A DNA stretch of 64,000 nt, taken from assembly GCF_900143005.1 (NCBI RefSeq), contig NZ_FRCS01000003.1, forward strand, positions 372,001-436,000, written 5' to 3'. The notes beneath the pieces were generated by a model. The model was not told the DNA's origin, searched no databases, and saw nothing but the letters and a program-made list of their open reading frames with translations. Both the position numbers and the translations under genes were made by a program. Shown here one piece after another: positions 14,533 through 60,820 of the stretch (positions are counted from its first letter, which is position 1; the number at the start of each line of letters is the position of its first letter). The DNA comes from Cryptosporangium aurantiacum (GTDB lineage Bacteria > Actinomycetota > Actinomycetes > Mycobacteriales > Cryptosporangiaceae).

Positions 14533-14558
14533 GATAGTTCACTCAGATAGTTTACTTC
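14533..14558. promoter_or_regulatory. Tandem operator-like repeat GATAGTTCACT / GATAGTTTACT
   Basis: Two copies with a 13-bp period (14533-14543 and 14546-14556) lie between the divergent genes at 14489 and 14593. The second contains TAGTTTACT, a 9-mer that recurs in other promoter gaps of the window. The A+T content stands out from the surroundings. Confidence 0.5.
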
Positions 14559-14592
14559 GCAGACACAGTCCACGCGGCGAAAGGGCCCGACC

Positions 14593-15357
14593 ATGAGCGA
14601 CGAAGTCCAGGTGGAGTATGCCGACGGCGTGGTGGTCATCACGATCAACCGGCCGCAAGCCCGGAACGCGATCAACCACGCGGTCTCTGCCGGGGTGGCG
14701 GCCGCGCTCGACGAGTTGGACGCTCGTGCCGACCTGACGTTGGGCATCATCACCGGCGCCGGCGGCAGCTTCTGCTCCGGCATGGACCTCAAGGCGTTCC
14801 TGGCCGGGGAGGACGTCACGGTCGACGGCCGGGGGCTGGGCGGATTGACCCAGGCGCCACCACGGAAGCCGCTGATCGCCGCGGTCGAGGGCTGGGCACT
14901 GGCCGGCGGCTGCGAAATCGCGCTGGCTTGCGATCTGATCGTCGCCGCCGAGGATGCCAAGTTCGGCATCCCTGAGGTCAAGCGTGGGCTCGTGGCCGGT
15001 GCCGGCGGGCTCATCCGGCTCCCCCGCCGCATTCCCTCGGCGATCGCGATGGAGCTGGCCCTGACCGGTGACCCGCTCGCCGCACCGGACGCCCACCGCC
15101 TCGGTTTGGTCAACGCGCTCACCCCGTCGGGCGGCGCGCTGGACGGAGCGAAGGCCCTCGCCGCCCGGATCACTTCCAATGGTCCGCTGGCGGTCGCGAC
15201 CACCAAACAGATCATCGTGCGCTCCGCGGACTGGACGACCGAGAGTCAGTGGGACCAGCAGTGGTCGCTGGTGGAGCCGGTTCTCCACTCGGCGGACGCC
15301 AAGGAAGGCGCGCTCGCCTTCGCGGAGAAGCGCGCGCCGGTCTGGACCGGCCGCTGA
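14593..15357 (+). CDS. Enoyl-CoA hydratase/isomerase (crotonase)
   Basis: A 254-residue crotonase. Oxyanion-hole segments are FCSGMDLKAF and EGWALAGGCE, and both glutamates used by true hydratases are present (GGCEIALACD and GIPEVKRGLVAGAGG). It should hydrate a trans-2-enoyl-CoA. A close relative is encoded at 44672-45454, with the same GxPEVKRGL and EKRAPxW ending, so these two may act on related substrates. The gene is divergent from the quinone-reductase-like gene and probably shares its control site. Confidence 0.9.
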   Translation: MSDEVQVEYADGVVVITINRPQARNAINHAVSAGVAAALDELDARADLTLGIITGAGGSFCSGMDLKAFLAGEDVTVDGRGLGGLTQAPPRKPLIAAVEGWALAGGCEIALACDLIVAAEDAKFGIPEVKRGLVAGAGGLIRLPRRIPSAIAMELALTGDPLAAPDAHRLGLVNALTPSGGALDGAKALAARITSNGPLAVATTKQIIVRSADWTTESQWDQQWSLVEPVLHSADAKEGALAFAEKRAPVWTGR

Positions 15358-15364
15358 CGTCGGC

Positions 15365-15396
15365 GTGCGGGAGCGGGCCGGGACCCGCTTCCGCAC
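15365..15396. terminator. Hairpin between convergent crotonase genes
   Basis: A 13-bp stem with one G-T pair (15365-15377 and 15384-15396) lies between genes ending at 15357 and 15410. Confidence 0.55.
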
Positions 15397-15409
15397 GGCC
15401 GTCAGCCGG

Positions 15410-16180
15410 TCAGCGGAATCGTGCGGTCCGCTCACGGAAGTCCGGGCCGGTGAGCAGCGTGCCCTGCACGGCGCCCAGCGTGGCGAGTTCCTCCGTGAGG
15501 CCGGCCTGCGCAGCCCGGCGGAGACTCGCCTTGCTGCGAGCCACCGCGGTCGCTGGAAGGGACACCACTCGATCGGTCACCTCCGCGACCGCGCCGGGCA
15601 GCGCGTCTGGTTCGACCACCCGGTTCACCAGGCCCCAGTCGGACGCGGTCACGGCGTCGATGGTGTGTCCCAGCAGCACCAACTCGTGTGCCCGGCTCGA
15701 CCCGATGCTCCGCGTCAGCAGATGCGCGCCGCCCATCCCCGGAACGAGACCGACGCCGATCCAGGAGCTGGCGAACGTCGAGCGGCCGGTGGCCACCCGC
15801 AGATCACAGCAGAGCGCGAGATCCAGGCCGGCGCCGAGTGCCGCGCCGTCGATCGCCGCGATCACCGGGTACGGCACGGTGCTCAGCGCGCTCACCAGAC
15901 GGTGGAACTGCGTGTACACGACCTCGTTGACCGCGATCGGTCCCTCGTCGGCGACGGCCCCGAGATCGACGAGATCCCCGCCCGCACAGAACACCGGCGG
16001 GCCACCGGCGATCACGGCCGCGCGGACACCCTGCGCGCCCGCCGCCAACAGTCGATCGGCGAGCGCGGACACGAGCGCGACGGTCAGCGCGTTGCGTCGC
16101 GCCGGCCGGTCGATCGTGAACTCGACCACGTGTCCGCGCCGCTGTTCCCGTAACCCGCTCTCGGTTGCCGCATCGCTCAC
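15410..16180 (-). CDS. Crotonase-family protein lacking hydratase glutamates
   Basis: A 256-residue crotonase fold with the oxyanion-hole motifs FCAGGDL and GAALGAGLDLAL. At the position of the first catalytic Glu there is Asp/Leu (GAGLDLALCCD) and at the second there is no Glu (SSWIGVGLVPGMGG), so a simple hydratase reaction is doubtful; an isomerase or hydrolase role is more likely. It is divergent from the CoA-transferase gene at 16437 across a 256-bp gap with the TAGTTTACT element. Start ATG 16180. Confidence 0.85.
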   Translation of the reverse strand: MSDAATESGLREQRRGHVVEFTIDRPARRNALTVALVSALADRLLAAGAQGVRAAVIAGGPPVFCAGGDLVDLGAVADEGPIAVNEVVYTQFHRLVSALSTVPYPVIAAIDGAALGAGLDLALCCDLRVATGRSTFASSWIGVGLVPGMGGAHLLTRSIGSSRAHELVLLGHTIDAVTASDWGLVNRVVEPDALPGAVAEVTDRVVSLPATAVARSKASLRRAAQAGLTEELATLGAVQGTLLTGPDFRERTARFR

Positions 16181-16237
16181 CGATCGCTCCCTTCGGTTCT
16201 CGTGCGCTCACTCCAGCACTCTCGATGCTAGATGTCT

Positions 16238-16246
16238 TAGTTTACT
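16238..16246. promoter_or_regulatory. TAGTTTACT element
   Basis: One copy of the recurring element, 58 bp upstream of the crotonase start on the minus strand, in an A+T-rich patch. A second A+T-rich patch (about 16335-16363) lies nearer the CoA-transferase start. Confidence 0.4.
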
Positions 16247-16436
16247 ATGTTGGTCATTCGTGATGTTTAGGTGACGTCGACCCTCGTCGAGCAGGGATGG
16301 CTTCGGAGCTGCGGCGACGCTTCGTCCGCGACCAAAACGAAGCTAAAGAATCTAGACTCTTGACCGCTTGCTGCGAGCCACATCACACTACGGGGACCCG
16401 CGGAACGACGACGTTTCATCCACGTGGAGGTGGACG

Positions 16437-18911
16437 ATGACAGGCCCGAACTCCGGCCCTGCCCACGACGGCCCTGGAGGGGTTCGAATAGATCCCTTGG
16501 CCGGCCTTACCGTCGTCGACCTTTCGACGTCCACGCAGGGCCTGAGCGTCACCCAGTTCCTCGCTGACGCCGGAGCCGAAGTCATCGGGGTCGAGCCGCC
16601 CGGCGGCAACCCGATCCGCCGCCAGCCGGGCTGGCCCGCCCTGGCCCGTGGCCGCCGCAGCGTCGTGCTCGACCTCTCGGAGCCCGACGATCGGGGGCGG
16701 CTCGACGTCCTGCTGGCGGACGCCGATGTCCTGGTCACCACCCATCCGCGCGCGGTTTCCGAGGCACTCGGGCTGACCGCCGAGGCGCTCGGTGCGCGCT
16801 TCCCGCGTCTGATCAGCGCGGAGCTCACCGCCTGGGGAGCGACCGGCCCATGGGCGAACCTGAAGCCCTACGAGGGCCTGGTGATGGCCAAGATGGGGCT
16901 GTTCCAAAGCAAGAACCGCTCGATCACCCGCCGCGGCCCGGCGTTCATTTCCGTGCCTTACGCCTCCTGGGGGGCCGCGCAAGCCGCGTTGCACGGCATC
17001 CTCGCCGCGCTCATCGAGCGGGAGTCCAGTGGTCGCGGCCAGCACGTCGAGTCCGACATGGTCCGCGGCGTCACGCTGCTGGACACCTGGACCTGGTACA
17101 CGGAAATGGTCGGTATCCGCTGGCCCGAGGCGTACCACGTGGTCGACGCCTACGACGACAACGGCGAACCGCTCGCCGCCCTGGTCTATCCGCTGCTGGC
17201 GGCCCCCACCAAGGACGGCACCTGGTTACAGTTCGCCCAGGTCGAGCCGCGCCTGTTCGCCGGCATGATGCAGGAACTCGGCCTCGCCCACGTGTTCGCC
17301 GACCCGAAGTGGGCCGGGCTGCCCAACCTGCCCACGCAGGAGCTGCGCACCGAACTCTGGGAGCTGATGATCAGCCGGGTCCGGGAGCGGACCATCGCGG
17401 AGTGGGAGGAGGTGTTCCGCACCAACAAGAACATCAGCGCGGAGCCCTACCGCGCCGGTGTTGACGTCTTCGCGCATCCGCAACTCGTCCACGACGGGCG
17501 GGTCGTCACGGTCGACGATCCTGACCTCGGTCCGGTGACCCAGCCGTCGACCCTCGTCCACGTCGACGAGAAGCCGCTCTCCCCGCCCCGCCCCGCTCCT
17601 CGTCTCGACGCCGACGGCGCGGCGCTGCGCTCGCGGCCCGCCCCGGCACCCCAGGAGGAAACCGCCCCCGACGCCGGGCGCGGGCTTCCGCTCGAGGGGC
17701 TCACGATCCTCGACTTCGGCCTCATGTTCGCCGGGCCGTTCGGCGCCACCGTGCTGACCGACCTGGGCGCCCGGGTGATCAAGGTGGAGACGCTGGAGGG
17801 CGACACGATCCGCCGCGTCTTCCCGTTCCCCGAGGCCGGCGGCATGAAGGTCATGCAGGGCAAGGAGAGCATCTCCGTCGACGTGCGCACGGACGAGGGC
17901 CGGGCGATCGTCCACGAACTGGCGCGGCGCAGCGATGTGGTGCTGCAGAGCTTCCGCGCCGGAGCGGCCGCGCGGGCCGGCATCGACGCCGAGACGCTGA
18001 AGGCGATCAACCCGGACCTGGTGTACGTCAACGCCCCCGGTTACGGCACCGACGGGCCCTACGGCTCGCGCCCGGCCTACGCCCCGTCGATCGGCGCGGC
18101 GATGGGTTTCGCGTTGACCGACGCGCCGGACGCCGCCTCGGCGACCGAGACGATGGACCAGATCAAAGCCGCCGCCGTCCGCCTCAACGCGGCCTCGGCG
18201 ATCCCGTCGATCCAGGCCGACGGGGTGGCCGCGCTGGCCGTGGCGTCGGCGATGCTGCTCGGCGTTCTCGCCCGGCGGCGCGGGCGGGCGCTGGGGAACC
18301 TGACCGCGACGATGATCGGCAGCGCCACCCACGCCCTCGTGCACCAGTTGGTCGACTACCCCGGTCGGCCGCCCGCACCGACCGTGGATCTCGGCGGCCA
18401 CGGCTTCGCCGCTCTGTACCGGATGTACCCGGCGGCCGAGGGGTGGGTGTACCTGGCCGCGCTCGCCCCGGAGGAGTGGGACGAGCTGGTCGCCGCGCTA
18501 CCCGCCGACGCCGGGCTCGACGACCCCCGTTTTGCCACCCCGGAGTCCCGGACCGAGAACGACGCGGCTCTGGCGGAGGTGCTCGGCACACTGTTCACCG
18601 GCCGGGCGGCGTCCGACTGGGAACGCGAGCTGGTCGCGGCGGGCGTCGGGCTCGTGCAGGTGCACGAGGGCTTGCCCGAGGTGCACCTGCAGACCGACAA
18701 GGCGCTGGCTGACGAATACTGCACGACCGCGGTCAGCCCGATCTTCGAGGAGCACCTCCGGCCGCAGCCGGCCGTGCGGTTCTCCCGCTCATCCACCCGG
18801 GCGCTGGGCGGTGTGCTGGCCGGCCACCACACCGACGCCATCCTCACCGAACTGGGTTACGACGCCGACCGCATCGCCGACCTGCGGGAGCGGAACATCG
18901 TCGCCGGCTGA
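16437..18911 (+). CDS. Double-domain CaiB/BaiF (family III) CoA-transferase
   Basis: An 824-residue chain holding two complete family III CoA-transferase domains, about residues 15-390 and 420-810; the family norm is one domain of about 400. Each begins with the usual strand-loop motif (LTVVDLSTSTQGLSVTQFLADAGAEVI, and LTILDFGLMFAGPFGATVLTDLGARVIKVE). The linker is rich in Pro and Ala. These enzymes move CoA between carboxylic acids without ATP or act as racemases. As the family works as interlocked dimers, the fusion may form an internal heterodimer. The ATG at 16437 follows GTGGAGGTGG, a strong ribosome site. A second double-domain protein is at 45451. Confidence 0.92.
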   Translation: MTGPNSGPAHDGPGGVRIDPLAGLTVVDLSTSTQGLSVTQFLADAGAEVIGVEPPGGNPIRRQPGWPALARGRRSVVLDLSEPDDRGRLDVLLADADVLVTTHPRAVSEALGLTAEALGARFPRLISAELTAWGATGPWANLKPYEGLVMAKMGLFQSKNRSITRRGPAFISVPYASWGAAQAALHGILAALIERESSGRGQHVESDMVRGVTLLDTWTWYTEMVGIRWPEAYHVVDAYDDNGEPLAALVYPLLAAPTKDGTWLQFAQVEPRLFAGMMQELGLAHVFADPKWAGLPNLPTQELRTELWELMISRVRERTIAEWEEVFRTNKNISAEPYRAGVDVFAHPQLVHDGRVVTVDDPDLGPVTQPSTLVHVDEKPLSPPRPAPRLDADGAALRSRPAPAPQEETAPDAGRGLPLEGLTILDFGLMFAGPFGATVLTDLGARVIKVETLEGDTIRRVFPFPEAGGMKVMQGKESISVDVRTDEGRAIVHELARRSDVVLQSFRAGAAARAGIDAETLKAINPDLVYVNAPGYGTDGPYGSRPAYAPSIGAAMGFALTDAPDAASATETMDQIKAAAVRLNAASAIPSIQADGVAALAVASAMLLGVLARRRGRALGNLTATMIGSATHALVHQLVDYPGRPPAPTVDLGGHGFAALYRMYPAAEGWVYLAALAPEEWDELVAALPADAGLDDPRFATPESRTENDAALAEVLGTLFTGRAASDWERELVAAGVGLVQVHEGLPEVHLQTDKALADEYCTTAVSPIFEEHLRPQPAVRFSRSSTRALGGVLAGHHTDAILTELGYDADRIADLRERNIVAG

Positions 18912-18921
18912 TCAGCGGCTC

Positions 18922-18953: not shown

Positions 18954-18989
18954 ACTACACTGGCGCCGATCAGACGCCGTGGGGGTGAC

Positions 18990-19766
18990 GTGCCAGCACT
19001 GGGGCAGGGCGCACGGGACGCGGTCCGGCCCAAGAAGACCGCCGATCTCCTGGCCGACCGGATCCGCAGGCAGATCGTCGACGGCGAGCTGCGTGAGGGC
19101 GACTGGCTACCGACCGAGGCGGAACTAATCGAGCGGTACGGCGTGTCCCGTCCCACGCTGCGTGAGGCCTTCCGGCTCCTCGAAGCCGACTCACTGGTCC
19201 GGGTCCGGCGTGGGCCACCCGGCGGCGCCCAGGTGAGTATCCCCGGCCCGGCCGCCGCGGCACCGCTGTTCGGCCTGGTCCTGACGATGGCCGGCACCAC
19301 GCTCGGCGACGTCTACGACGCGCGCCTGACCATCGAGCCCGCCGCCGCCCGCCGCCTGGCCGAGCAGGGCAGCGACGCCGACCACGACGCGTTCGCCGCC
19401 GAGATCGACCGAGCGGCCACCTCCACCGACACGCGGCTCCCGTTCGGCGCCGCCACCGTGGACCTGCACCGGCGGCTGGTCGAGCTCGCGGGCAACCGGA
19501 CGCTGGCCACCGTGATCACCATGCTGGGCACGATCACGTCCCGGCACGTCGAGGCCGCCTATCGGGAGAGCCCGCGCAGCCCGGAGGAGATCGCTGCCGA
19601 CAACCGGCGGGCCGTCCGTTCCTACCGACGGTTGCTCGCGTTCCTCCGGCAGCGCGACGGTGAGGGCGCCGAGCGGCACTGGATCGCTCATATGCGGGCC
19701 GCCCGCGAGCGGCTGACTCGGGACACCGGCGTGACCGATCGTCACGTCATCGACCTGCTGCCCTGA
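18990..19766 (+). CDS. GntR/FadR-family transcriptional regulator
   Basis: A 258-residue FadR-type regulator. The winged helix covers about residues 12-75 (PTEAELIERYGVSRPTLREAFRLLEADSLVRVRRG), followed by a helical FCD domain that begins near TLGDVYDARLTIEPAAARRL. Start is GTG 18990 after GGGGGTGAC. It shares layout and many residues with the GntR proteins at 33782 and 59848. The ligand is probably an acyl-CoA or organic acid given the neighbours. It may regulate the adjacent CoA-transferase or the small-protein/ligase group downstream. Confidence 0.88.
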   Translation: MPALGQGARDAVRPKKTADLLADRIRRQIVDGELREGDWLPTEAELIERYGVSRPTLREAFRLLEADSLVRVRRGPPGGAQVSIPGPAAAAPLFGLVLTMAGTTLGDVYDARLTIEPAAARRLAEQGSDADHDAFAAEIDRAATSTDTRLPFGAATVDLHRRLVELAGNRTLATVITMLGTITSRHVEAAYRESPRSPEEIAADNRRAVRSYRRLLAFLRQRDGEGAERHWIAHMRAARERLTRDTGVTDRHVIDLLP

Positions 19767-19807
19767 CCTGGGTTCTTCCCTCGACCTGTTCCCCAAGATG
19801 GTTATCT

Positions 19808-19817
19808 AAGGTACCTT
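19808..19817. promoter_or_regulatory. Palindrome AAGGTACCTT in A+T-rich patch
   Basis: A perfect 10-bp palindrome within GTTATCTAAGGTACCTTTATCC, about 107 bp upstream of the next gene (19924). This is the only A+T-rich segment in the gap and is a candidate promoter or operator. Confidence 0.3.
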
Positions 19818-24509: not shown

Positions 24510-25291
24510 CGCGCCTCCTCGAGGTTCTCGCCCAGGTAGGCCGCGCGGACGATCGGGTCCGCGCGGATCTCCGCCGGCGTGCCGTGCGCGATCCGCGCCC
24601 CGAAGTCCAGGACGCAGACCTGGTCGGACAACCGGAGCACGAGGTCGACGTCGTGCTCGACCATCAGCACCGAGATGCCGCGCTCGGCGACCACCCGGCG
24701 GAGCACCTCGGCGAGTTCTTCGGTCTCCGCGACGTCGAGCCCGGAGGACGCCTCGTCGAGCAGGAGCACGCTGGGCTCCCGGGCCAGCGCGCGGGCGATC
24801 TCCACCACCCGGGCCGACCCCAGCGGCAGCCCGCGGACCGTCCGATCGGCGAGCGGCTGCAGCCGCAGACCGGACAACAACTGGTCGACACGGTCCCGCT
24901 CCTCGGCCCGCGGGCGGCGGAAGCCGCCCGCGGTCAGCGGATCGGTCCACACCCGCAGCGGCGTGTGCTTGAGCCGATAGGCGAGGGTGACGTGCTCGCG
25001 AACGGTCAGCCCGCTGAACAGCTCGGGGTGCTGGAACGTGCGCGCCAGCCCGGCGCGGGCACGCGACTGCGGGGTCGACGCCGTCACGTCGAGTCCATCC
25101 AGGAACACCCGGCCGGCGTTCGGGCGCCGCAGCCCGGACAGGACGCTGAACAGCGTGCTCTTTCCGGCCCCGTTCGGTCCGACCAGGCCGACGGTGCTTG
25201 CCGCCGGCACATCCAGGTCGACGCCGTCCAGCGCGGTGATGCCTCCGAATCGGACCGTGATCCCACGAGCAGAGAGACGAGGCTCGGTCAT
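24506..25291 (-). CDS. livG: ABC transporter ATP-binding protein, LivG type
   Basis: A 261-residue ATPase with Walker A GPNGAGKSTLFS, Walker B VLLLDEASSGLD and the switch His in LMVEHDVDLVL. The signature is degenerate: VRGLPLGSARVVEIARAL stands where LivG proteins usually read LSYGQQRRLEIARAL, so this subunit may depend on LivF for a canonical composite site. It overlaps the fused permease gene by 4 bp upstream and livF by 4 bp downstream. Confidence 0.92.
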   Translation of the reverse strand: MTEPRLSARGITVRFGGITALDGVDLDVPAASTVGLVGPNGAGKSTLFSVLSGLRRPNAGRVFLDGLDVTASTPQSRARAGLARTFQHPELFSGLTVREHVTLAYRLKHTPLRVWTDPLTAGGFRRPRAEERDRVDQLLSGLRLQPLADRTVRGLPLGSARVVEIARALAREPSVLLLDEASSGLDVAETEELAEVLRRVVAERGISVLMVEHDVDLVLRLSDQVCVLDFGARIAHGTPAEIRADPIVRAAYLGENLEEAR

Positions 25292-27264: not shown

Positions 27265-27405
27265 CGCTCTTTCTCCGTCGGCGCGTCGCTGCGCCGGAGG
27301 GCGGGCTGTGATCGACCGCAGGTGCCGGATGTGACCCCGGCCACCAGGCGGTTCGCGTCAGCGTGCCACGCGTCACCATCCCGACAGAAGGGGTTCAGTT
27401 AAGAA

Positions 27406-27438
27406 AGATCACTTATTCGATTCACTAGGAGTACCTAG
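27406..27438. promoter_or_regulatory. Candidate control site upstream of liv operon
   Basis: AGATCACTTATT (27406-27417) is the exact inverse complement of a 12-mer at 34610-34621 beside a GntR gene. CTAGGAGTACCTAG (27425-27438) is a near-palindrome. The patch is A+T-rich and lies 140-175 bp upstream of the liv start. Confidence 0.4.
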
Positions 27439-27524
27439 ATGACGTAGATGACTATCTTTGGGGCGTGCGGATATCGTCGTCGTGAATGCCGGTGGTCGTC
27501 CCGGCCGTCGAGACGGAGTGAGCC

Positions 27525-31726: not shown

Positions 31727-31804
31727 GGACTTCTCCTCGGTACCTCGGGGGCGCACGGCCCGGCGCACGGCCGGTCGAGCACGGGAATCAAGGGTCTAGA
31801 TAGC

Positions 31805-31814
31805 AAACTAGTTT
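31805..31814. promoter_or_regulatory. Palindrome AAACTAGTTT upstream of thiolase operon
   Basis: A 10-bp perfect palindrome within TAGCAAACTAGTTTAACC, 79 bp upstream of the thiolase start, in an A+T-rich patch that contains part of the recurring TAGTTTA element. Confidence 0.4.
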
Positions 31815-31865
31815 AACCATCTTTTGCGACGGGCGCCTAGCAGATACGGGTGAACCGCGCGCCCC

Positions 31866-32680: not shown

Positions 32681-32705
32681 GATAGTAAAGCTAGTAAACT
32701 ACGTT
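32681..32705. promoter_or_regulatory. TAGTTTACT element (minus orientation) in divergent promoter
   Basis: GATAGTAAAGCTAGTAAACT continues into ACGTT; the reverse strand reads TAGTTTACTAGCTTTACT, two imperfect copies of the recurring 9-mer. It lies 35-55 bp upstream of the gene at 32736 and 30-54 bp upstream of that at 32651. Confidence 0.5.
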
Positions 32706-33781: not shown

Positions 33782-34576
33782 TCAGGCGAACAGGTCGAGC
33801 ACCGTCGTCGAGTCCATGCCATCGCGCAGGAGGCTGCGCCCCGCGGCCTCCATGTGCGCGCGCCAGTGTTGTTCGGCTCCCTCCGCGTCGCGAGCCTCGA
33901 GCAACTCGATCAGCCGGCGGTAGGAGCGGACCAGCGCGCGGAACTCGCGGACGGTCGTCGTCCGGTTCGCCGGTCGGTGCAGCGCGACGGCCAGGTGCGT
34001 CGAGACCACCTCGTCCAGGACGCTGGACTGGATCGCCAGCGTGTTGTTACCGGCCCGCCGGAGCACCAACGTGTGGAATTCGGTCGTCACCCGCGACCAG
34101 CCGGCGAGGTCGGAGGCCGGGCTGCCCGCCTCGATAGCGGCTTCCAGGTCGTCGACCACACGGTTCAGGACGGCCAGGTCCTGCTCGGTCCGGCGGGTGG
34201 CCAGCCGGCCGGCGGCGGCGGGCTCGATCACCGATCGGGCCGCGTAGACGTCACCCATCGTGGTGTTGGTGACCTGGAGTAACAGACCGACGTATCGGGC
34301 GGCTACCGCGGGATCCGGCGCGAGGATGCGGGCCCCGCGGGCTCCGCGCCGGATCACGATCAGCGACTCGGCCTCGAGGATGCGAAACGCCTCACGCAGC
34401 GTCGGCCGGGAGACGTCGAACTGCTCCAGGAGGGCCTGCTCCGACGGAAGGCTCTCACCCTCGACCAGTTCGCCACGGACGATCTTGCCGCGAAGATGGG
34501 CGGCGATCAGCTCGCTCGTCTTCGCCGCGCGCAGACTGCGGCCGACCAGCGACTCGCCGTCCAGTGGTATGACCAT
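33782..34576 (-). CDS. GntR/FadR-family transcriptional regulator
   Basis: A 264-residue FadR-type regulator starting at ATG 34576 behind GGAGG. The winged helix (PSEQALLEQFDVSRPTLREAFRILEAESLIVIRRG) is at about residues 40-85 and the FCD domain begins at TMGDVYAARSVIEPAAAGRL. It is a close paralogue of the regulator at 59848: long blocks such as VSRPTLREAFRILEAESLI and RAHMEAA are identical and the layout matches to the last residues (TVLDLF). It is divergent from the ligase gene at 34681; the gap has TAGTTTACT and AATAAGTGATCT, candidate autoregulatory sites. Confidence 0.9.
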   Translation of the reverse strand: MVIPLDGESLVGRSLRAAKTSELIAAHLRGKIVRGELVEGESLPSEQALLEQFDVSRPTLREAFRILEAESLIVIRRGARGARILAPDPAVAARYVGLLLQVTNTTMGDVYAARSVIEPAAAGRLATRRTEQDLAVLNRVVDDLEAAIEAGSPASDLAGWSRVTTEFHTLVLRRAGNNTLAIQSSVLDEVVSTHLAVALHRPANRTTTVREFRALVRSYRRLIELLEARDAEGAEQHWRAHMEAAGRSLLRDGMDSTTVLDLFA

Positions 34577-34609
34577 GAGCGCCTCCGCCAACCAACCATG
34601 ATCTGTAAG

Positions 34610-34631
34610 AATAAGTGATCTCAGTAAACTA
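34610..34631. promoter_or_regulatory. Candidate GntR operator between regulator and ligase genes
   Basis: AATAAGTGATCT (34610-34621) matches exactly, inverted, the 12-mer upstream of the liv operon at 27406-27417; AAGTGATCT also occurs at 41081-41089. AGTAAACTA (34623-34631) is the inverse of TAGTTTACT. Both lie between divergent starts at 34576 and 34681. Confidence 0.5.
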
Positions 34632-34680
34632 CGTTTGGGTGCACTGCGCCTGGACTGTGCGAGGTCCGACAGGAGCGACG

Positions 34681-37478: not shown

Positions 37479-37504
37479 GAACCAGGTATAACAGATATCT
37501 AACT

Positions 37505-37513
37505 TGGCTTACT
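37505..37513. promoter_or_regulatory. TGGCTTACT, variant of the recurring element
   Basis: One mismatch from TAGCTTACT, located between the divergent MaoC-like (37478) and dehydrogenase (37562) starts in an A+T-rich patch (about 37488-37520). Confidence 0.35.
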
Positions 37514-37561
37514 AGGTTTGCGTAGACCACTTCGCCTGCACCGCTGCTCTCGGAGGCATCC

Positions 37562-40250: not shown

Positions 40251-41017
40251 TTCAGGCCGAAGCGCTGCGCGCCGTCGAGCCGGATGACCTCGCCGTTGAG
40301 ATAGTCGTTGCGAGCGATATGCTCGACCAGGGCACCGAACTCGGCCGGACGGCCCATTCGGCGGGGGTTCGGAACCGCCTTGCCCCAACGCTCCTGAGCC
40401 TCTTCCTCGGGCAGCCGGAAGGCCGGCGTGAAAAACGTACCGGGAGCGATCGTCATCACCCGGACGCCCAGCGGCGCGAGGTCACGGGCGGCGACCAGGC
40501 CGAGCCCGACGACACCGCCCTTGGCCGCCGAGTAGTCGGTCTGCCCGACCTGTCCCTCGAACGCGGCGATGCTCGCGGTGTTGACGACGACGCCGCGCTG
40601 GCCGGACTCCAGCGGCTCGGTGGCGGCGATCGCGGCCGCAGCGAGCCGGAGGACGTTGAACGTACCGGTCAGGTAGATCTCGACCGTGCGCCGGAAGGTA
40701 TCCAGGGGGTACGGCGTGCCGTCCCGGCCGATCAGGCGCGACGCCGCCACCGGGCCACCGTGCGCGCTCACCGCGATCCGCAGCGGGCCGAGCTCGGACG
40801 CGGCCGCGATCGCCTCCTGTACCGACGCTTCGTCGGTTACATCGGTACGGACGAACCGCACCCGGTCGCCCACCTCGTCGGCGAGCACCATTCCCTTGTC
40901 CTCGGCGAGGTCGGCGACGACCACACCCACACCGGCGTTCGCCAGCGCCCGGACCGTGGCCTCGCCCAGGCCACCGGCTCCACCGGTGACGATCGCCGAT
41001 ACACCCTCGAGTTCCAT
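40247..41017 (-). CDS. SDR, 3-hydroxyacyl-CoA dehydrogenase type II-like
   Basis: A 256-residue short-chain dehydrogenase: TGGAGGLG nucleotide site, catalytic YSAAKGG, and APGTFFTP after the last beta strand, as in 17-beta-hydroxysteroid dehydrogenase 10 and bacterial 3-hydroxy-2-methylbutyryl-CoA dehydrogenases. The usual NAG motif reads SAHGG. It probably oxidises a 3-hydroxyacyl-CoA with NAD, the step between crotonase and thiolase. ATG 41017 is behind GAAGGAG; the longer frame starts in the control region. The A+T-rich gap upstream has TAGCTATC and AAGTGATCT. Confidence 0.88.
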
Positions 41018-41092
41018 GCCGTCTCCTTCAGGACACCACATCGTGATCCCTGAAGGTTAACCTAGCTATCTATCTAAACGAAGTGATCTCAC

Positions 41093-42001
41093 TCAGAACC
41101 GCTGCAGCGTCGCCCTCCGGAGCTCCGCCAACACCTCCGCCAACACCGGGTCACGCAGGGCGCGTTCGGCCGGCCAGGCTACGCCTACCTCGAACAGCGG
41201 ACCGGGGTCCCGGAGCGGGACCACCGCGTACTCCGGCCCGTCGAACACCCGCGCACCCGGCTGCCGCGGGTCGCCGAGCACCAACGACAGGCTCCGGTAG
41301 CGGGTGATGTGCGCGGCGACCTGCACGGCGTCGTCGTGCGGGAGATCAACGATCCGGGTGATGCCCGCGTCGATCAGGAACCGGCGGAGGTTACCCACGG
41401 CCGCCGGGTGGACCTTGCCGGAGATCATCAACACCTGACGCCGCGTCAGCTCGCCGATGTCCACCGAGTCCCGGCCCGCGAACTCGTCATCCGCGCGCAT
41501 CGCGACCGCGAACCGGTACCGGCCGATCGGCAACGAGTCGAGCCCCGGCACGTCCACCGGCAGATGCACGACGGCCAGGTCGAGTCTGCCCGCCGCGAGC
41601 CGCCCGAAGAGCTGCTGGGACGGCTCGAGCGTCAGATCGGCATCGACCGCGGGACGCACCGCCGCCAGCGTGTCCAGCACGAGGTCGAGAGCGCCCGGCG
41701 GTGCGAGCGGCGTCGCGCCGATCCGACGCGTCGGGACGGCGTCGGCGGCCAGGGAGCCGAACGCGCGAAGCGCGTCGAAACGCTCCAGGACATCCCGGGC
41801 GGCCGGGAGGAACTCCGTGGCGACGGCGGTCAGCTCGACCGTGTGGTAGCCGCGGACGAACAGATCGGCGCCGAGCTCGCGTTCGAGTTCGCGGATCCGG
41901 CGGGAGAGCGGCGATGCCGTCAGGTGCAGCCGCTCGGCGGCTCGCCCGAAGTGGCGTTCCTCGGCGACCGCGACGAAGTAGCGAAGCTGCTGGATATCCA
42001 T
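41093..42001 (-). CDS. LysR-family transcriptional regulator
   Basis: A 302-residue LysR protein. The N-terminal helix-turn-helix reads MDIQQLRYFVAVAEERHFGRAAERLHLTASPLSRRIRELE, and the C-terminal substrate-binding domain begins near RRIGATPLA. It is divergent from the aldo/keto reductase gene at 42081 with a 79-bp gap, the normal LysR arrangement for a regulator and its target. Effector unknown. Confidence 0.92.
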   Translation of the reverse strand: MDIQQLRYFVAVAEERHFGRAAERLHLTASPLSRRIRELERELGADLFVRGYHTVELTAVATEFLPAARDVLERFDALRAFGSLAADAVPTRRIGATPLAPPGALDLVLDTLAAVRPAVDADLTLEPSQQLFGRLAAGRLDLAVVHLPVDVPGLDSLPIGRYRFAVAMRADDEFAGRDSVDIGELTRRQVLMISGKVHPAAVGNLRRFLIDAGITRIVDLPHDDAVQVAAHITRYRSLSLVLGDPRQPGARVFDGPEYAVVPLRDPGPLFEVGVAWPAERALRDPVLAEVLAELRRATLQRF

Positions 42002-42080
42002 GCCGTACCCAGTTTAGGGAGCACCCGGGCCGCCTCAGCGGCTAGCCTCGACGACACAAACAAAGGAAGCTAGGTACACC

Positions 42081-50005: not shown

Positions 50006-51177
50006 GCCTGGCTCTGCGGAGCCGGTGCGCCGACGGCCGGCGGTTCGCCGATGACGCCGGGGAACAGCTCGTTGAACGTGCCGATCGTGATGCGGTGCCG
50101 CACGTCGTCCGGTACACCGTCGAAGAGCTCGTGCAGCGTCTCCTGGGTGTGGCCGAAAGTGCCTTCCATGTGCGGGTAGTCGCTGCCCCACATGACGTTG
50201 CGGTACCCGTGGTGCATCACCGTCGGGATCGCCGACTTGTCGTGCTGGAACGAGGCGTAGACCTGCTCGTAGAGGATCTCTGCCGGCGCCCGGGACAGCT
50301 TCGGCCGCACCGCCATCGAGTGCTGCCGGTAACCCTCGGTCATCCGGTCGGCCAGGAACGGGACCCAGGAGGCGCCACCCTCGGCGATCAGCACCTTCAG
50401 GTTGGGGTGCTGGTCGAGCGCGCCGCTGGTGACCAGCTTCATCGCGGCCCGCTGGCCGGAGAACGTGGTCTCGGTGTAGTTGAGCACCGCGCCGCCGGGG
50501 CCGCGATAGGTGACGCCGACGGCCTGACCGGACGCGAGGTCGACCGGGTCGGTGCCGACATGGAAGGCCAGCACCATGTTGGCTTCCTGCGCCGCGGCCC
50601 AGAACGGCATCCAGTACTTGTTGTTCCAATCCGGCTGCGCCGGGTGCGGCGTCGTCGGCAGGAAGACGGCCCGGTAGCCCAGGCCCGCCGCACGCTGCAG
50701 CTCGGCGATCGCGTCCTCGACCAGCAGCGTCGAGACCTGCGCGGTCGGCACCAGGCGCGGCGAGACCTTCATGATCGCGTCGATCGCCCAGTCGTTGCTG
50801 ACCTTCAGCGCCTCGCGCAACACCTCCGGCGTGCGGAACGACGAGCTCCACATGCCCAGCGACGGGAAGACGACCTCGGCCCAGACGCCTTCCTGGTCCA
50901 GGTCGGCGAGGCGGAGCTTCGCGTCCTTCGCACCCGGCGCCCGGTTGGACAGGTCGTAGAACTCCTGCTGCGCGACGTTCGGCAGCCGACGGCGGAACGA
51001 CTGTCCATCGATGTGCACGGTCTCCCAGAGCCCGTCGGGGTCCTTCTCGGCCCGCGGCACCAGGTCGGCGAGGCGCTTGGGCAGGTTGGACGACCAGAGG
51101 TCATCGGGCTCCAGGAAATGCGAGTCCCCGGAGTTGGCCCAGATCTTCGCCGGTGCTTCGGTGGCTGTCGCCGTCAT
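50002..51177 (-). CDS. Metal-dependent amidohydrolase (COG2159 type)
   Basis: A 391-residue TIM-barrel hydrolase of the ACMS-decarboxylase-like amidohydrolase group. The first metal site is in SGDSHFLEPDD (Asp18, His20, Glu23), further ligands are likely His in LAFHVGTDP and the Asp in MWGSDYPHMEG; the typical HPNLKVLIAEGGASWVP lies between. This group hydrolyses, hydrates or decarboxylates ring-opened acids. It leads the operon with the thiolase-fold enzyme and DUF35 protein, which suggests action on the same carbon skeleton. The upstream gap carries palindrome TAGTGCACTA. Confidence 0.9.
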   Translation of the reverse strand: MTATATEAPAKIWANSGDSHFLEPDDLWSSNLPKRLADLVPRAEKDPDGLWETVHIDGQSFRRRLPNVAQQEFYDLSNRAPGAKDAKLRLADLDQEGVWAEVVFPSLGMWSSSFRTPEVLREALKVSNDWAIDAIMKVSPRLVPTAQVSTLLVEDAIAELQRAAGLGYRAVFLPTTPHPAQPDWNNKYWMPFWAAAQEANMVLAFHVGTDPVDLASGQAVGVTYRGPGGAVLNYTETTFSGQRAAMKLVTSGALDQHPNLKVLIAEGGASWVPFLADRMTEGYRQHSMAVRPKLSRAPAEILYEQVYASFQHDKSAIPTVMHHGYRNVMWGSDYPHMEGTFGHTQETLHELFDGVPDDVRHRITIGTFNELFPGVIGEPPAVGAPAPQSQA

Positions 51178-51253
51178 GGCTTCCTCCAGATCGGTGTCGC
51201 AACGTGCGCGTTACGTACGAGGCTGCCCGCGCCGGACGGCAATGTCAATAACT

Positions 51254-51263
51254 TAGTGCACTA
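51254..51263. promoter_or_regulatory. Palindrome TAGTGCACTA upstream of amidohydrolase operon
   Basis: A perfect 10-bp palindrome followed by GCTTTAC, 77 bp upstream of the amidohydrolase start and just beyond the DUF2889 stop. It is the second copy in the window (first at 13458). Confidence 0.4.
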
Positions 51264-51266
51264 GCT

Positions 51267-52247
51267 TTACAGCGTAAAAATGGTCGGCAAATCCGCGAGT
51301 GCCCGCATCTGGTCGTTGAGGTGCGTGCAGGTCGAGATGCCGATGAACTCCGCCCGCACCAGAGGCCGGACGGTGCGCACGTCCTGACCGACGAGTCGGC
51401 TCGCGCTCGCCGCCGCAGCCGGGCACTCGACCCACGGCAGCACCCGCGGCGTGGCCACCATCGCGCGGATCGTGAAGTCGACCGGATCGACCTGACCCCG
51501 AAGCGTGTATTCGTGGATGACGGTCTCCCCACCTTCCGGATCGACGTGCGAGTCGCGGTACAGGCTGTCCACCTCGATCACGCCGCCCGCCGACCAGACG
51601 TCCAGACGCCGGGCCCGCCGCACGGCGTGGGCCGTCAGCGGGGGCCGCGAATGCCAGGCGTCCGGGTCGGCGTCCAGCGACGGCGCCTCCGGCCCGGTCA
51701 CCACCGGGATCAGACGATCCCGCTCGATGCCGACCATGATCGTGCCGCCGCTGCGCCAGCCGGAACAGAGGTCCGCGGTCGTGCGGCGCTCGAGCGCCTC
51801 CTCGGTGGGGTGGATCCCGCCCGCGCCGAGCGCGTAACCACTGACCAGCGTCGCGACCGGGAAGTCGTCCAGGAGGAGGTGCAACCTCGTGGCCTGCTCG
51901 TACTGGTCGGGCAGGGCGGCCTGGACGCGTCGCCGGAATCCGCTGCCGACGGTGTCGCCGACCAGGCTTTCCAACCGTGGTTCGGCCGGGTCGCTCGCGA
52001 TGCGCCGGAGCGTCCAGCCACCGGTGAAGTCGATCTCCGCGTCGAGACTCGTCATGGCCCGCACCTCGACGTCGCCGTCGGCGCCCGTCCGGACGTCCCG
52101 CGCGCGTGCGTCGACCACGACACGGCCGAGCAGACCGTCCGGCCGGAGCATGTCCACGGTGCTGGTCCGCCGGACGGACCCCGGCCGTCGCGGAGGCGTG
52201 CCGGTGGTGGGCTCGTGGATCCCGTGGCGCGGGTGCAACGGACGCAC
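51267..52247 (-). CDS. DUF2889-like protein
   Basis: A 326-residue soluble protein. The N-terminal RRPGSVRRTSTVDMLRPDG and the C-terminal ISTCTHLNDQMRALADLP are hallmarks of the DUF2889 family, which has no established activity. A conserved Cys-His pair in CTHLND could bind metal or catalyse. The start GTG 52247 lies 4 bp after the crotonase stop, so the two are an operon. A role in the same acyl-CoA route is inferred only from position. Confidence 0.8.
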   Translation of the reverse strand: MRPLHPRHGIHEPTTGTPPRRPGSVRRTSTVDMLRPDGLLGRVVVDARARDVRTGADGDVEVRAMTSLDAEIDFTGGWTLRRIASDPAEPRLESLVGDTVGSGFRRRVQAALPDQYEQATRLHLLLDDFPVATLVSGYALGAGGIHPTEEALERRTTADLCSGWRSGGTIMVGIERDRLIPVVTGPEAPSLDADPDAWHSRPPLTAHAVRRARRLDVWSAGGVIEVDSLYRDSHVDPEGGETVIHEYTLRGQVDPVDFTIRAMVATPRVLPWVECPAAAASASRLVGQDVRTVRPLVRAEFIGISTCTHLNDQMRALADLPTIFTL

Positions 52248-52251: not shown

Positions 52252-53025
52252 CTACCGGATCTGAGGCTTGGGCTTGGTGAACCCGGTGCGCTGCGCCTGC
52301 GAGTCGACGATCATCGAGCCGAGCCGGGTGTAGACCATGCCTTGTTTCTGCCCGTCCAGCGGCGCCGAGCCGAGCGTCTCCCAAATGGCCCGCACGGTCC
52401 CCTGGATCGCCGCCGGTGGCTTGTCCGCGATGATCGCGGCCAGCTCCGCCGCCCGCTTCCACAAGTCCTCGCGGGGTAGCACCTCGCTGACCAGCCCGAC
52501 CTCGAGGGCACGGCGTGCCGAGATCCGCTCGTCGAGACCGAGCAGAGCCATCCGCAACACCTCACCCAGCGGGATCCGGTGCGCGAGACCAATCGGTTCG
52601 CAGGCCGCGACCATGCCGTAGCTGGTGTGCGGGTCGAAGAACGTCGCATCCTCGGAGCAGATCGCGATGTCGCACTCGTTGACCCAGTACAGCGCGCCGC
52701 CGGCGACCATTCCGTGGAGGGCGACGATCACCGGCTTCCAGACCGAGTTCTGCCGTGGGCCGAGCGAAACCCCCGGGTCGATCTGGCTCCAGATGTTGTC
52801 CGGCAGGAAGATGCCCTCCGATACGTCCACCCCAGTGGAGAACGCCCGCTCTCCCGCGGCCCGCAGGACGACCACCCGCACGTCGTCATCGACGCGAACC
52901 TGCTCCCAGACCCGGACGAACTCGTCCAGCATCGCCTGGTTGAACGAGTTCAGCTTGTCCGGGCGGTTCAGCGTCACCGTCGCGACGTGTTCGGCCACCT
53001 CGTAGGTGATCGTCTCGAAATCCAT
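52252..53025 (-). CDS. Crotonase-family protein without classical glutamates
   Basis: A 257-residue crotonase. Oxyanion-hole segments FSTGVDVSEG and HGMVAGGALYWVNECD are present, but the first catalytic Glu position is Leu/Tyr (GGALYW) and the second region reads DPHTSYGMVAACEP, unlike hydratases. Isomerisation, hydrolysis or ring chemistry is therefore as likely as hydration. ATG 53025 is divergent from the NTF2-like gene at 53093 with TAGCTTACT between. DUF2889 follows at once. Confidence 0.88.
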   Translation of the reverse strand: MDFETITYEVAEHVATVTLNRPDKLNSFNQAMLDEFVRVWEQVRVDDDVRVVVLRAAGERAFSTGVDVSEGIFLPDNIWSQIDPGVSLGPRQNSVWKPVIVALHGMVAGGALYWVNECDIAICSEDATFFDPHTSYGMVAACEPIGLAHRIPLGEVLRMALLGLDERISARRALEVGLVSEVLPREDLWKRAAELAAIIADKPPAAIQGTVRAIWETLGSAPLDGQKQGMVYTRLGSMIVDSQAQRTGFTKPKPQIR

Positions 53026-53059
53026 CGGGCGCTCCTTTGTGCCGCAGCTAGGCTGACTG

Positions 53060-53080
53060 TAGCTTACTTAGCTACCTACT
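53060..53080. promoter_or_regulatory. TAGCTTACT with second half-copy TAGCTACCTACT
   Basis: TAGCTTACT at 53060-53068 is followed by TAGCTACCTACT at 53069-53080, between divergent starts at 53025 and 53093. The first copy lies 35-43 bp and 25-33 bp from them. Confidence 0.5.
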
Positions 53081-53092
53081 TTGGGAGCCTCG

Positions 53093-55500: not shown

Positions 55501-55514
55501 GTCCGCGTCCTCCT

Positions 55515-58170: not shown

Positions 58171-58171
58171 G

Positions 58172-59683
58172 TCAGCCGGCCACCGGCTGTGGCGGGGCTC
58201 CGAGGACCTCCAGCAGGCGCACCCGGTCGACCTTCATCGCCGCGGTGCGCGGGAACTCGTCGAGGATCGTGATCCGGGTCGGCACCTCGTACGGCGTCAG
58301 GGTTTCGCGGCAGGCCGTGATCAGGACGTCGGACGTCGGACGGTCGACGTCGGCCCGCGGGATGACCGCGGCGATCGGGACGCTACCCAACCGCTCGTGC
58401 GGAACGCCGACGACCGCCGCCTCCCGCACGGCCGGGTGCCTCTCGAGCGCCGCCTTGACGACCGCCGGATGCACCTTGAAGCCACCACGGATGATCGCGT
58501 CGTCGGCGCGGCCCTCGATCCAGAGGAAGCCGTCGTGGTCGATACGGGCGAGATCGCTGGTGCGCACCCACTCGCGCCCGCCGTTGGCCGCCTGCGCGGT
58601 GCGGATCTCCAGGATGCCGGAGGAACCGACCGGCAGTTCGGCGCCCTGATCGGTGACCACGCGCAGCGAGACACCGGGGAACGCCCGCCCTGCGGCGCCC
58701 TGCTTGGCCGGCCACCACTGGACGTGGTCGGCCTTGGTCCAACCGGCGACCGCACCGGAGAACTCGGTGGCGCCGTAGGTCATCAGGACGCGGATGCCGT
58801 ACCGCTCGAGCATCGTGTCGGCCAGCGCCGGTGGGCAGGGGGCGGTGCCGGACGTCACCACCTGGAGGCTGGCCAGACGGTGCGGCGGAACGTCGGCGTC
58901 GATCAGCATCTGCATCGCCGCGGGCACCAGCCCGGCGGCCCGCGGTTTGTGCGTGTCGACCGCGTCGACCCACTCGGGGACCGTGAACCGGTCCAGCAGA
59001 ACGGTCCGCCGTCCGGCGTAGATGGACGTGATGACGCCCCAGAGACCTCCGATGTGCACCATCGGGGTGGACACGATGGTCGCACCCGTCCCGAGCACGA
59101 TCTTGCCGTTGCCATCGACCTTGCCGGGCATCCTCGCCGACCCGATCGACGTGGCGAGCTGGCCGTACGTCAACTGAACGCGCTTGGGCTTACCGGTCGT
59201 TCCGGACGTGAGCATCTCGATCGCGACGCCCGGGGCCGTGGGGCGATCGGTGGCGAGGATCGGCTCGACCGGCTCCATCGCGCACGTGCCGTCCCACCCC
59301 AGGACGATGATCCGGCCGTGCCGAACGATCGCGTCCCGGACGCCCGGGAGCGCCAGTGTGGTGGCTGACGCCACGACGACGGGTAGCGCGCTGGCGTCGA
59401 TGTCGGCGCAGAGGCGCTCCGGCGGCTGCAACGGGCTCAACGTCGTGAGGCAGCGGTCCGTGCTGAGCAGCGACGTCGCGACGGCCGCGAACTGCGGCCG
59501 GTTCTCCAGCACCACGCCGACGCGGGCGCCGGCCCCGAGCGCCACCGCGTTCAGGATGCCGTTCAGCTTCTGCGACAGCGTCGAGAGCTGTCCCCACGTC
59601 CACGCCGTGTCACTGTGCACGACCGCGACGGTCGCGGGGGCCGCCTGCGCGAGCAGCCCCGCGAGACGCTCCTGGATCGCCAT
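58172..59683 (-). CDS. Acyl-CoA ligase (class I adenylate-forming enzyme)
   Basis: A 503-residue ligase. Phosphate loop EMLTSGTTGKPKRVQL, adenine region MTYGATEFSGAV, hinge DLARIDHDGFLWIEGRADDAIIRGGFKV, and a C-terminal Lys region RTAAMKVDRV that lacks the usual TGK, so the second half-reaction lysine may differ in context. It leads the operon on the minus strand; upstream gap has TAGCTTACT at 59725. The substrate is not readable. Confidence 0.9.
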   Translation of the reverse strand: MAIQERLAGLLAQAAPATVAVVHSDTAWTWGQLSTLSQKLNGILNAVALGAGARVGVVLENRPQFAAVATSLLSTDRCLTTLSPLQPPERLCADIDASALPVVVASATTLALPGVRDAIVRHGRIIVLGWDGTCAMEPVEPILATDRPTAPGVAIEMLTSGTTGKPKRVQLTYGQLATSIGSARMPGKVDGNGKIVLGTGATIVSTPMVHIGGLWGVITSIYAGRRTVLLDRFTVPEWVDAVDTHKPRAAGLVPAAMQMLIDADVPPHRLASLQVVTSGTAPCPPALADTMLERYGIRVLMTYGATEFSGAVAGWTKADHVQWWPAKQGAAGRAFPGVSLRVVTDQGAELPVGSSGILEIRTAQAANGGREWVRTSDLARIDHDGFLWIEGRADDAIIRGGFKVHPAVVKAALERHPAVREAAVVGVPHERLGSVPIAAVIPRADVDRPTSDVLITACRETLTPYEVPTRITILDEFPRTAAMKVDRVRLLEVLGAPPQPVAG

Positions 59684-59710
59684 GGTCTTCCTCCCACCTC
59701 AAGCCAACGG

Positions 59711-59733
59711 GTAGTTCAAAAGGTTAGCTTACT
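59711..59733. promoter_or_regulatory. TAGTTCAAA and TAGCTTACT elements
   Basis: TAGCTTACT at 59725-59733 with a weaker TAGTTCAAA at 59712-59720, 29-50 bp upstream of the ligase start at 59683, in the only A+T-rich part of the gap. Spacing of 13 bp equals that of the tandem repeat at 14533-14558. Confidence 0.5.
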
Positions 59734-59792
59734 TTCCTTTCTTCGGTGAGCCGATCCCCCGCACTCCGGCCCTGACATCGGAAGACCGCAAA

Positions 59793-59833
59793 CGCCGGTG
59801 GCCCTACCCGTCGGACGGGTAGGGCCACCGGCG
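59793..59833 (-). terminator. Strong hairpin terminator of the GntR gene
   Basis: An 18-bp perfect stem (59793-59810 with 59816-59833) and a 5-base loop, 15 bp beyond the stop at 59848. No T tract. Confidence 0.75.
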
Positions 59834-59847
59834 TGGCAGTGCGCTGT

Positions 59848-60633
59848 CTAGTTGAAGAGGTCCAGGACCGTGGCGGACCGCAGATCGTCACGGAGCAGCG
59901 ACCGGGCGGCGGCCTCCATGTGGGCACGCCAATGCTTCTCCGCGCCCTCCGCGTCCTTGGCCTCGACCAGATCGACCAGCTTCCGGCTCGACCGCACCGA
60001 CTTACGGAATTCCCGTAGATTGCGCGCGGGATCGGTGGACCGGCGGGCGACGATCGCCAGGTGCATCGCGATGATCTCGCGCAGCACGGCCGACTGGAGA
60101 GCGAGCGTTTGGTTGCGGGAGCGCTCGAGCACGAGTTCGTGGAAAGTCGTGGTCGCCGTGCTCCAGACCGGAGCGTCGACCGACGGGTCCCCGGACTCCA
60201 CCAGGTTCTCCAGGCCGGCCACGCACTCGCGGAGATCTGCCACGTCTTGCGCGGTCCGGCGCTCGGCCAGCATCGCGGCGGCGGCCGTCTCGATCACTGA
60301 CCGCGCCTCGTACACATCGGCCAGCGTGGTCTTGGAGTGCTGGAGCAGGAGACCCACGTACCGCGCCGCCACGTCGACGCTCGGCGCGACGATGCGCGCA
60401 CCGCGCGAGCCGCGCCGGATCGCGATCAGCGATTCGGCCTCCAGAATGCGGAATGCCTCCCGGAGCGTCGGCCGGGAGACCTCGAACTGGTCCATCAAGT
60501 CGGCTTCGGAGGGCAGGCTGTCGCCTTCGACCAGCTCGCCGCGGACGATCCGGCCCCGCAGGTACGACGCGATGAGCTCGCCGGTTTTCGCGGCGCGCAT
60601 TCCGCGCCCCACCGGCTCGCTGGTGGTGACCAC
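59848..60633 (-). CDS. GntR/FadR-family transcriptional regulator
   Basis: A 261-residue FadR-type regulator from GTG 60633, which has AGGAGGG directly upstream; an upstream ATG adds a low-complexity extension. The winged helix reads PSEADLMDQFEVSRPTLREAFRILEAESLIAIRRG, the FCD domain starts at TLADVYEARSVIETAAAAML. It is a near-duplicate of the regulator at 33782. It lies between the ligase operon (59683) and the SDR gene (60846), both with A+T-rich elements upstream, and may regulate both and itself. Confidence 0.9.
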   Translation of the reverse strand: MVTTSEPVGRGMRAAKTGELIASYLRGRIVRGELVEGDSLPSEADLMDQFEVSRPTLREAFRILEAESLIAIRRGSRGARIVAPSVDVAARYVGLLLQHSKTTLADVYEARSVIETAAAAMLAERRTAQDVADLRECVAGLENLVESGDPSVDAPVWSTATTTFHELVLERSRNQTLALQSAVLREIIAMHLAIVARRSTDPARNLREFRKSVRSSRKLVDLVEAKDAEGAEKHWRAHMEAAARSLLRDDLRSATVLDLFN

Positions 60634-60789
60634 GTACCCTCCTGTGCCCCACGGGCGCGACGACCCTCGCCCGCACTGACGGGGCATAGTTCGCTGAGTT
60701 GACTAGGAGCGGTGAGTTTACCGCACCACCCACCAGTGGAGTGCTCGCGCGGCCACGCGTTGACTTTCGTCCCACCGGCGGATAGAAGG

Positions 60790-60820
60790 TAGTTAACTCA
60801 GCATCCTTCTTTATCTTACT
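60790..60820. promoter_or_regulatory. TAGTTAACT and TATCTTACT elements
   Basis: Two variants of the recurring 9-mer (60790-60798 and 60812-60820) lie 26-56 bp upstream of the SDR start at 60846. A further TAGTTCGCT is at 60687-60695, nearer the GntR start. Confidence 0.4.

Follow-up and report, generated by a model that had tools for sequence, protein, structure and literature searches.

The element considered in this study, first noticed as the 9-mer TAGYTTACT, recurs in a 64,000-nucleotide (nt) stretch of the genome of Cryptosporangium aurantiacum (hereafter the window: positions 372001-436000 of contig C3, in a genome of 9.58 Mb and 44 contigs). The described operators that it most resembles are those of the FadR subfamily of GntR regulators. 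In the published comparison (PMC4494728), these operators are palindromes of the form NyGTNxACNy, where x is 2-3, and a spacing of 2 nt between GT and AC is given for GntR, HpxS, HypR, MdcY, PrpR, and UxuR. The common half-site is TKGT, with G favored when Arg occupies position 28 of the helix-turn-helix (HTH), and weaker boxes are found 7-12 nt from the center in 13 groups of the subfamily. One FCD-type member, Atu1419 of Agrobacterium fabrum, has a 10-bp palindrome, ATGTATACAT, with the core GT-AT-AC, the G of which is read by Arg45 (PMC7797058).

Like the operators of GntR, UxuR, PrpR, and HypR, the element is an AT-rich palindrome with a GT-NN-AC core, lying in divergent gaps and accompanied by extra boxes 7-12 nt from the center (here through a second palindrome offset by 9 bp). 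It differs from the operators in that source by its half-site, AASNTAGT as compared to TKGT, by half-overlap at a fixed 9 bp, and by the concentration of 22 groups of sites in one 175-kb cluster (PMC4494728). It shares with Atu1419 an FCD-type GntR, a core of the GT-NN-AC type, and sites in the promoters of a catabolic region, but the identical 10-mers of Atu1419 lie 190 bp apart and can be looped by a tetramer, whereas here the palindromes overlap (PMC7797058). GntR1 and GntR2 of Corynebacterium glutamicum are likewise actinobacterial GntR paralogs, functionally redundant and with one shared operator set; their targets, however, are gluconate and glucose-uptake genes with an operator of the type TNGTNNNACNA, not a clustered acyl-CoA regulon (PMC2230225). 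No paper on this operator or its regulon was found among those listed in searches of open-access literature; two listed papers, on Thermus regulators, contain the 9-mer. I consider the element to be the predicted operator of the cluster's own FCD-type GntR regulators, most likely those encoded at 33782 and 59848 (window coordinates, as are all positions below without a contig prefix), with a probability of about 0.75.

An Exact 9-mer Confined to One Cluster

A preliminary description of the window had listed six exact instances of TAGYTTACT, all of which lie at the positions and on the strands that it gave (Table 1). Its estimate was about 0.1 chance matches per 64 kb; 100 dinucleotide shuffles of the window gave a mean of 0.04 and a maximum of 1. 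Matches with one mismatch number 13 (0.87 expected) and include all four variants previously named (14535, 37505, 60790, and 60812). The observation is confirmed, in a stronger form than had been claimed.

The genome-wide scan that the description had called for places all ten exact 9-mers of the genome within 156 kb (C3:276034-431733); a reversed control pattern occurs seven times in the genome. One mismatch being allowed, there are 105 matches in the genome as compared to 409 for the control. The broader pattern TAGYWWRCT has 31 matches, 16 in C3:276034-432798 and 15 elsewhere (206 for its reversed control), in which count some sites appear twice because they match on both strands. The exact match at C3:276034 falls inside a YceI-type open reading frame (ORF), at its 5' end, is not among the best 45 matches to the palindrome described below, and may be a chance occurrence.

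As an account of the sites in general, chance or the copying of a repeat has practically no probability. Two operators outside the window, at C3:284667 and C3:286939, do resemble each other closely over long flanks, apparently through duplication of one promoter. The other sites, however, have flanks that are unlike by eye, so that mobile repeats are rejected, and chance is refuted by counts far above those in shuffles and control DNA.

A Palindrome That Often Overlaps Itself by Half

Expectation maximization (EM) on 24 site regions places the 9-mer within an 18-bp palindrome, AASNTAGTWWACTANSTT. The sequence examined was the 300 kb around the window, and contig C1 supplied a 300-kb background. 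A matrix was iterated from the ten exact sites, its further sites falling mostly between genes and mostly in C3:284-450.5 kb, and the 24 regions were picked from its matches, leaving out those that were isolated or weak (C3:216818, 228146, 251607, 375445, 388340, and 395773). Matrices score their own training sites throughout, except in the test on held-out flanks and control DNA presented below. The top palindrome score is 23.7 bits in the cluster and 10.8 bits in the background. In each half G (97%) is followed by T (60%) or C (25%), then come the two-base center and the mirror image; most of the inner bases are T/A, in contrast to the M/K found in the published form GTM-N0-1-KAC.

The half-overlapping arrangement is the most unusual feature of the operator. 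Of the 23 groups, 11 have a second palindrome (>8 bits) exactly 9 bp from the first, and 3 have one at 13 bp. The mean score is 7.6 bits at the 9-bp offset and negative at the other 25 of the 26 offsets tested; when the flanks were shuffled in 500 rounds, the 9-bp offset averaged -2.1 (sd 1.1), and a mean of 1.2 of the 23 groups passed, never more than 5. Part of the 9-bp signal is built in, because the half-site is itself nearly symmetrical. Since palindromes 9 bp apart share a half-site, the element can be read as two or three 9-bp units resembling AACTNAGTT. The preliminary description had noted pairing at a 13-bp period. Such a pair does exist at 14535/14548, but this spacing is the less frequent one, and 13 bp is ruled out as the main period by the dominance of the 9-bp offset. 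An 11-bp direct repeat of the GlnR or PhoP type is rejected on its spacing.

Concentration of Sites in Promoter Gaps

There are 22 groups of sites at or above 12 bits in C3:276-451 kb, 16 of which are in the window. All but one are intergenic, while intergenic DNA makes up 15,137 of the 175,000 bp; the exception (34618) is inside the start of an ORF that is probably over-extended. Among gaps of at least 20 bp in this stretch, a site is present in 14 of 33 divergent, 6 of 43 tandem, and 0 of 22 convergent gaps, and from 13 to 61 kb of the window all nine divergent gaps have one. Genes were called by my own script; one further gene and one changed start were entered manually, following Pfam evidence that 31866 (-) and 32340 (+) are both genes. 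Five of the six exact 9-mers lie in divergent gaps, as had been described, and the sixth (59725) in the tandem gap between 58172 (-) and 59848 (-). The earlier statement that all six lie 25-60 bp from a start codon fails for 16238, where 113 bp separate the best palindrome from the nearest called start.

The other 125 kb of C3 that were examined hold a single group at or above 12 bits (C3:228142, within a gene), and the 300 kb of contig C1 hold none. A profile built from 22 sites and run against the whole genome has six matches at E ≤ 10, each of them a training site in the cluster and none beyond it. The genes that adjoin sites encode crotonases, CoA ligases, acyl-CoA dehydrogenases, thiolases, family III CoA-transferases, and luciferase-like monooxygenases, as well as short-chain dehydrogenases/reductases (SDRs), an amidohydrolase, and a Liv-type ABC transporter.

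TAGTTT and TAGCTT fit the actinobacterial -10 hexamer, and in 10 of the 16 groups in the window a start lies 19-60 bp from the center of the best palindrome, both as if the element were part of the promoter (a -10 box, TANNNT, or the box of a special sigma factor) and not an operator. This is nonetheless very improbable: a palindrome leaves direction undefined, the element repeats at a 9-bp pitch, some divergent gaps have a single site, and the element was not found elsewhere in the genome. The site being symmetrical, its orientation carries no information on overlap with a -10 box. A plain -10 box is rejected, as the element is both palindromic and confined to the cluster.

The GntR Regulators of the Cluster

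That the element is an operator for the local FadR-type regulators had been proposed in the preliminary description, and the sequence supports it: the element is palindromic, confined to the cluster, almost wholly in promoter gaps, built on a GT-NN-AC core in keeping with NyGTNxACNy, and matched by a counterpart around orthologs in three genomes. Sites lie in the promoters of 33782 and 59848 themselves, not in that of the third paralog, 18990, which is perhaps a further reader. All ten aligned GntR proteins (the three of the cluster and seven from other genomes) have the helix VSRPTLREAFR without change. Arg is missing in all ten at what is assumed, by numbering, to be HTH position 28; the A found at the K position of TKGT fits this absence, a consistent but weak indication, given that only 1 of 16 readable FCD loci (of 30 in the genome) has Arg there.

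If the regulators act as proposed, one GntR dimer would cover one 18-bp palindrome, and the conserved Arg of SRPTLRE, which by FadR numbering I take to be the equivalent of Arg45 in Atu1419, would read the near-invariant G of AGT. An overlapping copy of the palindrome might be used by a second dimer or subunit. Bound GntR would block the nearby promoters until released by an intermediate of the pathway, probably of acyl-CoA type, and release would then induce ligases, acyl-CoA dehydrogenases, crotonases, thiolases, CoA-transferases, and the transporter together. A more elaborate version is conceivable, though doubtful, in which the operator is a phased array of 9-bp units like AACTNAGTT, two or three in number, on which dimers of two or three GntR paralogs bind adjacently and compete or co-operate, so silencing the 175-kb region and also controlling subordinate TetR, IclR, and LysR switches.

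Two further loci on contig C6 (C6:394583-395686 and C6:428392-429495) are long open frames, each with two GntR-FCD units.

Counterparts in Other Genomes and the Choice of Reader

The strongest link between the element and the GntR regulators is comparative. In a survey of 397 genomes of the order, the source included (at most six candidates scored per genome), a homolog of the GntR was found at E ≤ 1e-55 in seven other genomes. Three other genomes of the source's genus contain 0, 0, and 2 exact 9-mers and no GntR homolog at E ≤ 1e-40, and they therefore provide no footprint. EM from random seeds, applied to three of six fetched ortholog loci (L105, L107, and L108, one from each of three genomes), gave AAATNAGTATACTNATTT, a palindrome that shares its AGT-NN-ACT core with that of the source genome. 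It occurs in 12 of 16 segments and stands in the promoter of the GntR gene in all three genomes. With the AAATNAGTATACTNATTT matrix fixed, eight sites at or above 17 bits were found in 120 kb of flanks not used for the matrix, as compared to none in 300 kb of control DNA from the same genomes (15 stretches of 20 kb), where the best score was 13.1. The matrix from the source genome scores the 12 AAATNAGTATACTNATTT training sites at an average of 4.57 bits, as compared to -14.1 (sd 2.3) after their letters are shuffled.

The related palindrome has 20 sites in the 180 kb of the three genomes (the three loci and flanks L126-L131). Fifteen are outside every long ORF, and another long ORF starts within 70 bp of four of the five that are inside one. 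The cluster around the palindrome in L107 includes mce-type import genes, from which I infer that the genus of the three genomes is Mycobacterium-like. Frames with two GntR-FCD units are also found near the orthologs (L105:2408-3856 and L107:15430-16887, within 8 kb of the GntR gene).

The motif is conserved with orthologs of the GntR regulators in three genomes of one genus, and no such partnership is found for TetR in these loci, which were chosen by GntR. Of ten regulators in the cluster (five TetR, one IclR, one LysR, and three GntR), only the GntRs have matches at E ≤ 1e-8 in nine ortholog loci, and none of the 12 TetR genes of the stretch matches the three motif-bearing loci at E ≤ 1e-3. 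These results bear on the unlikely alternative that the element is the operator of a TetR regulator (C3:297714, 307447, 308509, or 450617). Some TetR proteins do bind as two dimers on overlapping palindromes, as would suit the half-overlap seen here, and strong sites lie directly upstream of three of the four genes (at C3:298382, 307357, and 450528). None of the four, however, has a relative at E ≤ 1e-3 in the nine loci, three of which bear the palindrome (the loci having been chosen by GntR), and the GT-NN-AC core would be a coincidence. It is quite improbable that the reader is instead the IclR (C3:302002), the LysR (41093), or a regulator encoded elsewhere. Sites precede the IclR and LysR genes (C3:301977 and 42059), but each divergent gap is shared with another gene that may be the target, and neither protein has a relative in the nine loci at E ≤ 1e-3. 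A global regulator is disfavored by the confinement of the exact 9-mer to the cluster.

Several observations weigh against the assignment to GntR. Within the cluster, sites are also found upstream of C3:297714, 307447, and 450617 (TetR), C3:302002 (IclR), and 41093 (LysR); C3:308509 (TetR) has only a 9-mer with one mismatch. In addition, A precedes G in the site, whereas TKGT is the common form in the subfamily. Elsewhere in the genome, the surroundings of another paralog of 33782 (C7:417080, 44% identical) contain no such site, the best score within 20 kb being 5.5 bits. The three supporting genomes, belonging to one genus, are not independent, nor is the EM step by itself, since the 16 segments were chosen by eye, as intergenic or AT-rich, after similar elements had been noticed. 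The matrix from the source genome shows a modest excess at or above 9 bits (3 sites in 60 kb and 5 in 120 kb of flanks, as compared to 4 in 300 kb of control DNA). No convincing site of the source's own type was seen at ortholog loci L041, L097, L103, L106, and L109 (L097 and L103 being shorter than 4 kb). L041, with a 57% identical ortholog, has weak sites only (best 7.6 bits), and a sixth locus, L110, has a single weak one (9.4 bits). Three of the 12 TetR genes have weak matches in L041 or L109 at E ≤ 1e-3, and, the loci having been selected by GntR, other shared regulators were less likely to appear. Three other genomes of the source's genus contain 0, 0, and 2 exact 9-mers and no GntR homolog at E ≤ 1e-40, and they therefore provide no footprint.

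On the assignment to GntR, the cluster offers a specific candidate operator for a group of FCD-type GntRs for which no earlier described one was found, and it predicts which operons of a large cluster for fatty-acid-like or acyl-CoA catabolism are co-controlled. The palindrome in three genomes, with mce-type import genes at one locus, hints at a regulon that extends more widely among actinobacteria; knowing its inducer would show what the substrate is. The sites also allow tests of how GntR proteins use half-overlapping palindromes.

Sites and Genes in the Window

Table 1. GntR genes and groups of palindromic sites in the window. Palindromes are given by first position, with the score in bits in parentheses.
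Feature	Position	Strand	Palindromes	Offset	Exact 9-mer	Adjoining genes or remarks
FCD-type GntR (FadR subfamily), first candidate reader	33782..34591	-				site in own promoter (20.3 bits)
FCD-type GntR paralog	59848..60687	-				65% identical to 33782; palindrome in own promoter (14.0 bits)
Third FCD-type GntR paralog	18990..19766	+				44% identical to 33782; no site in gap before gene
Candidate operator	13454..13484		13454 (19.3), 13463 (10.9), 13467 (12.8)			before thioesterase 12952-13419 (-)
Candidate operator	14531..14561		14531 (19.3), 14544 (14.1)	13 bp	14548	before crotonase 14593 (+)
Candidate operator	16225..16251		16225 (12.4), 16234 (21.7)	9 bp	16238	divergent crotonase 15410 (-) / CoA-transferase 16368 (+)
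Candidate operator	19795..19812		(17.1)			before 19924 (+) and CoA ligase 20243 (+)
Two palindromes	27401..27458		27401 (14.6), 27441 (14.9)			divergent gap, Liv-type ABC transporter genes (27258 -) / 27525 (+)
Candidate operator	31797..31823		31797 (18.9), 31806 (11.6)	9 bp		before thiolase 30581-31768 (-)
Strongest candidate operator	32688..32705		(23.7)		32693 (-)	divergent crotonase 31866-32651 (-) / luciferase-like monooxygenase (+, start set by hand)
Candidate operator	34609..34635		34609 (11.5), 34618 (20.3)	9 bp	34623 (-)	divergent FCD-GntR 33782-34591 (-) / CoA ligase 34615 (+, ORF start probably over-extended)
Candidate operator	37488..37518		37488 (14.6), 37501 (19.9)	13 bp		divergent 37478 (-) / acyl-CoA dehydrogenase 37562 (+)
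Palindromes	41059..41094		41059 (19.1), 41077 (12.7)			before SDR 40247-41017 (-)
Candidate operator	42059..42076		(15.9)			between LysR gene 41093-42001 (-) and aldo-keto reductase 42081 (+)
Candidate operator	51250..51267		(21.8)			before amidohydrolase 50002-51177 (-)
Candidate operator	53056..53082		53056 (10.8), 53065 (17.5)	9 bp	53060	divergent crotonase 52252-53025 (-) / SnoaL-like 53093 (+)
Candidate operator	59717..59743		59721 (17.1)		59725	before CoA ligase 58172-59683 (-)
Palindrome	60683..60700		(14.0)			5' end of FCD-GntR 59848; overlaps longest-ORF start 60687, upstream of called start 60633
Candidate operator	60786..60812		60786 (18.0), 60795 (12.3)	9 bp		before SDR 60846 (+)

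The divergent gap at 13420-14592 is 1.2 kb long, with a separate operator at either end and no gene called between them. Several genes of the window contain repeated stretches. The family III CoA-transferases encoded at 16368-18911 and 45451-47877 (847 and 808 amino acids (aa), respectively) have two matching stretches each and are apparent tandem fusions, the 714-aa acyl-CoA dehydrogenase (37562-39706) has two C-terminal-domain stretches, and the 656-aa Liv permease (25288-27258) has two permease stretches.

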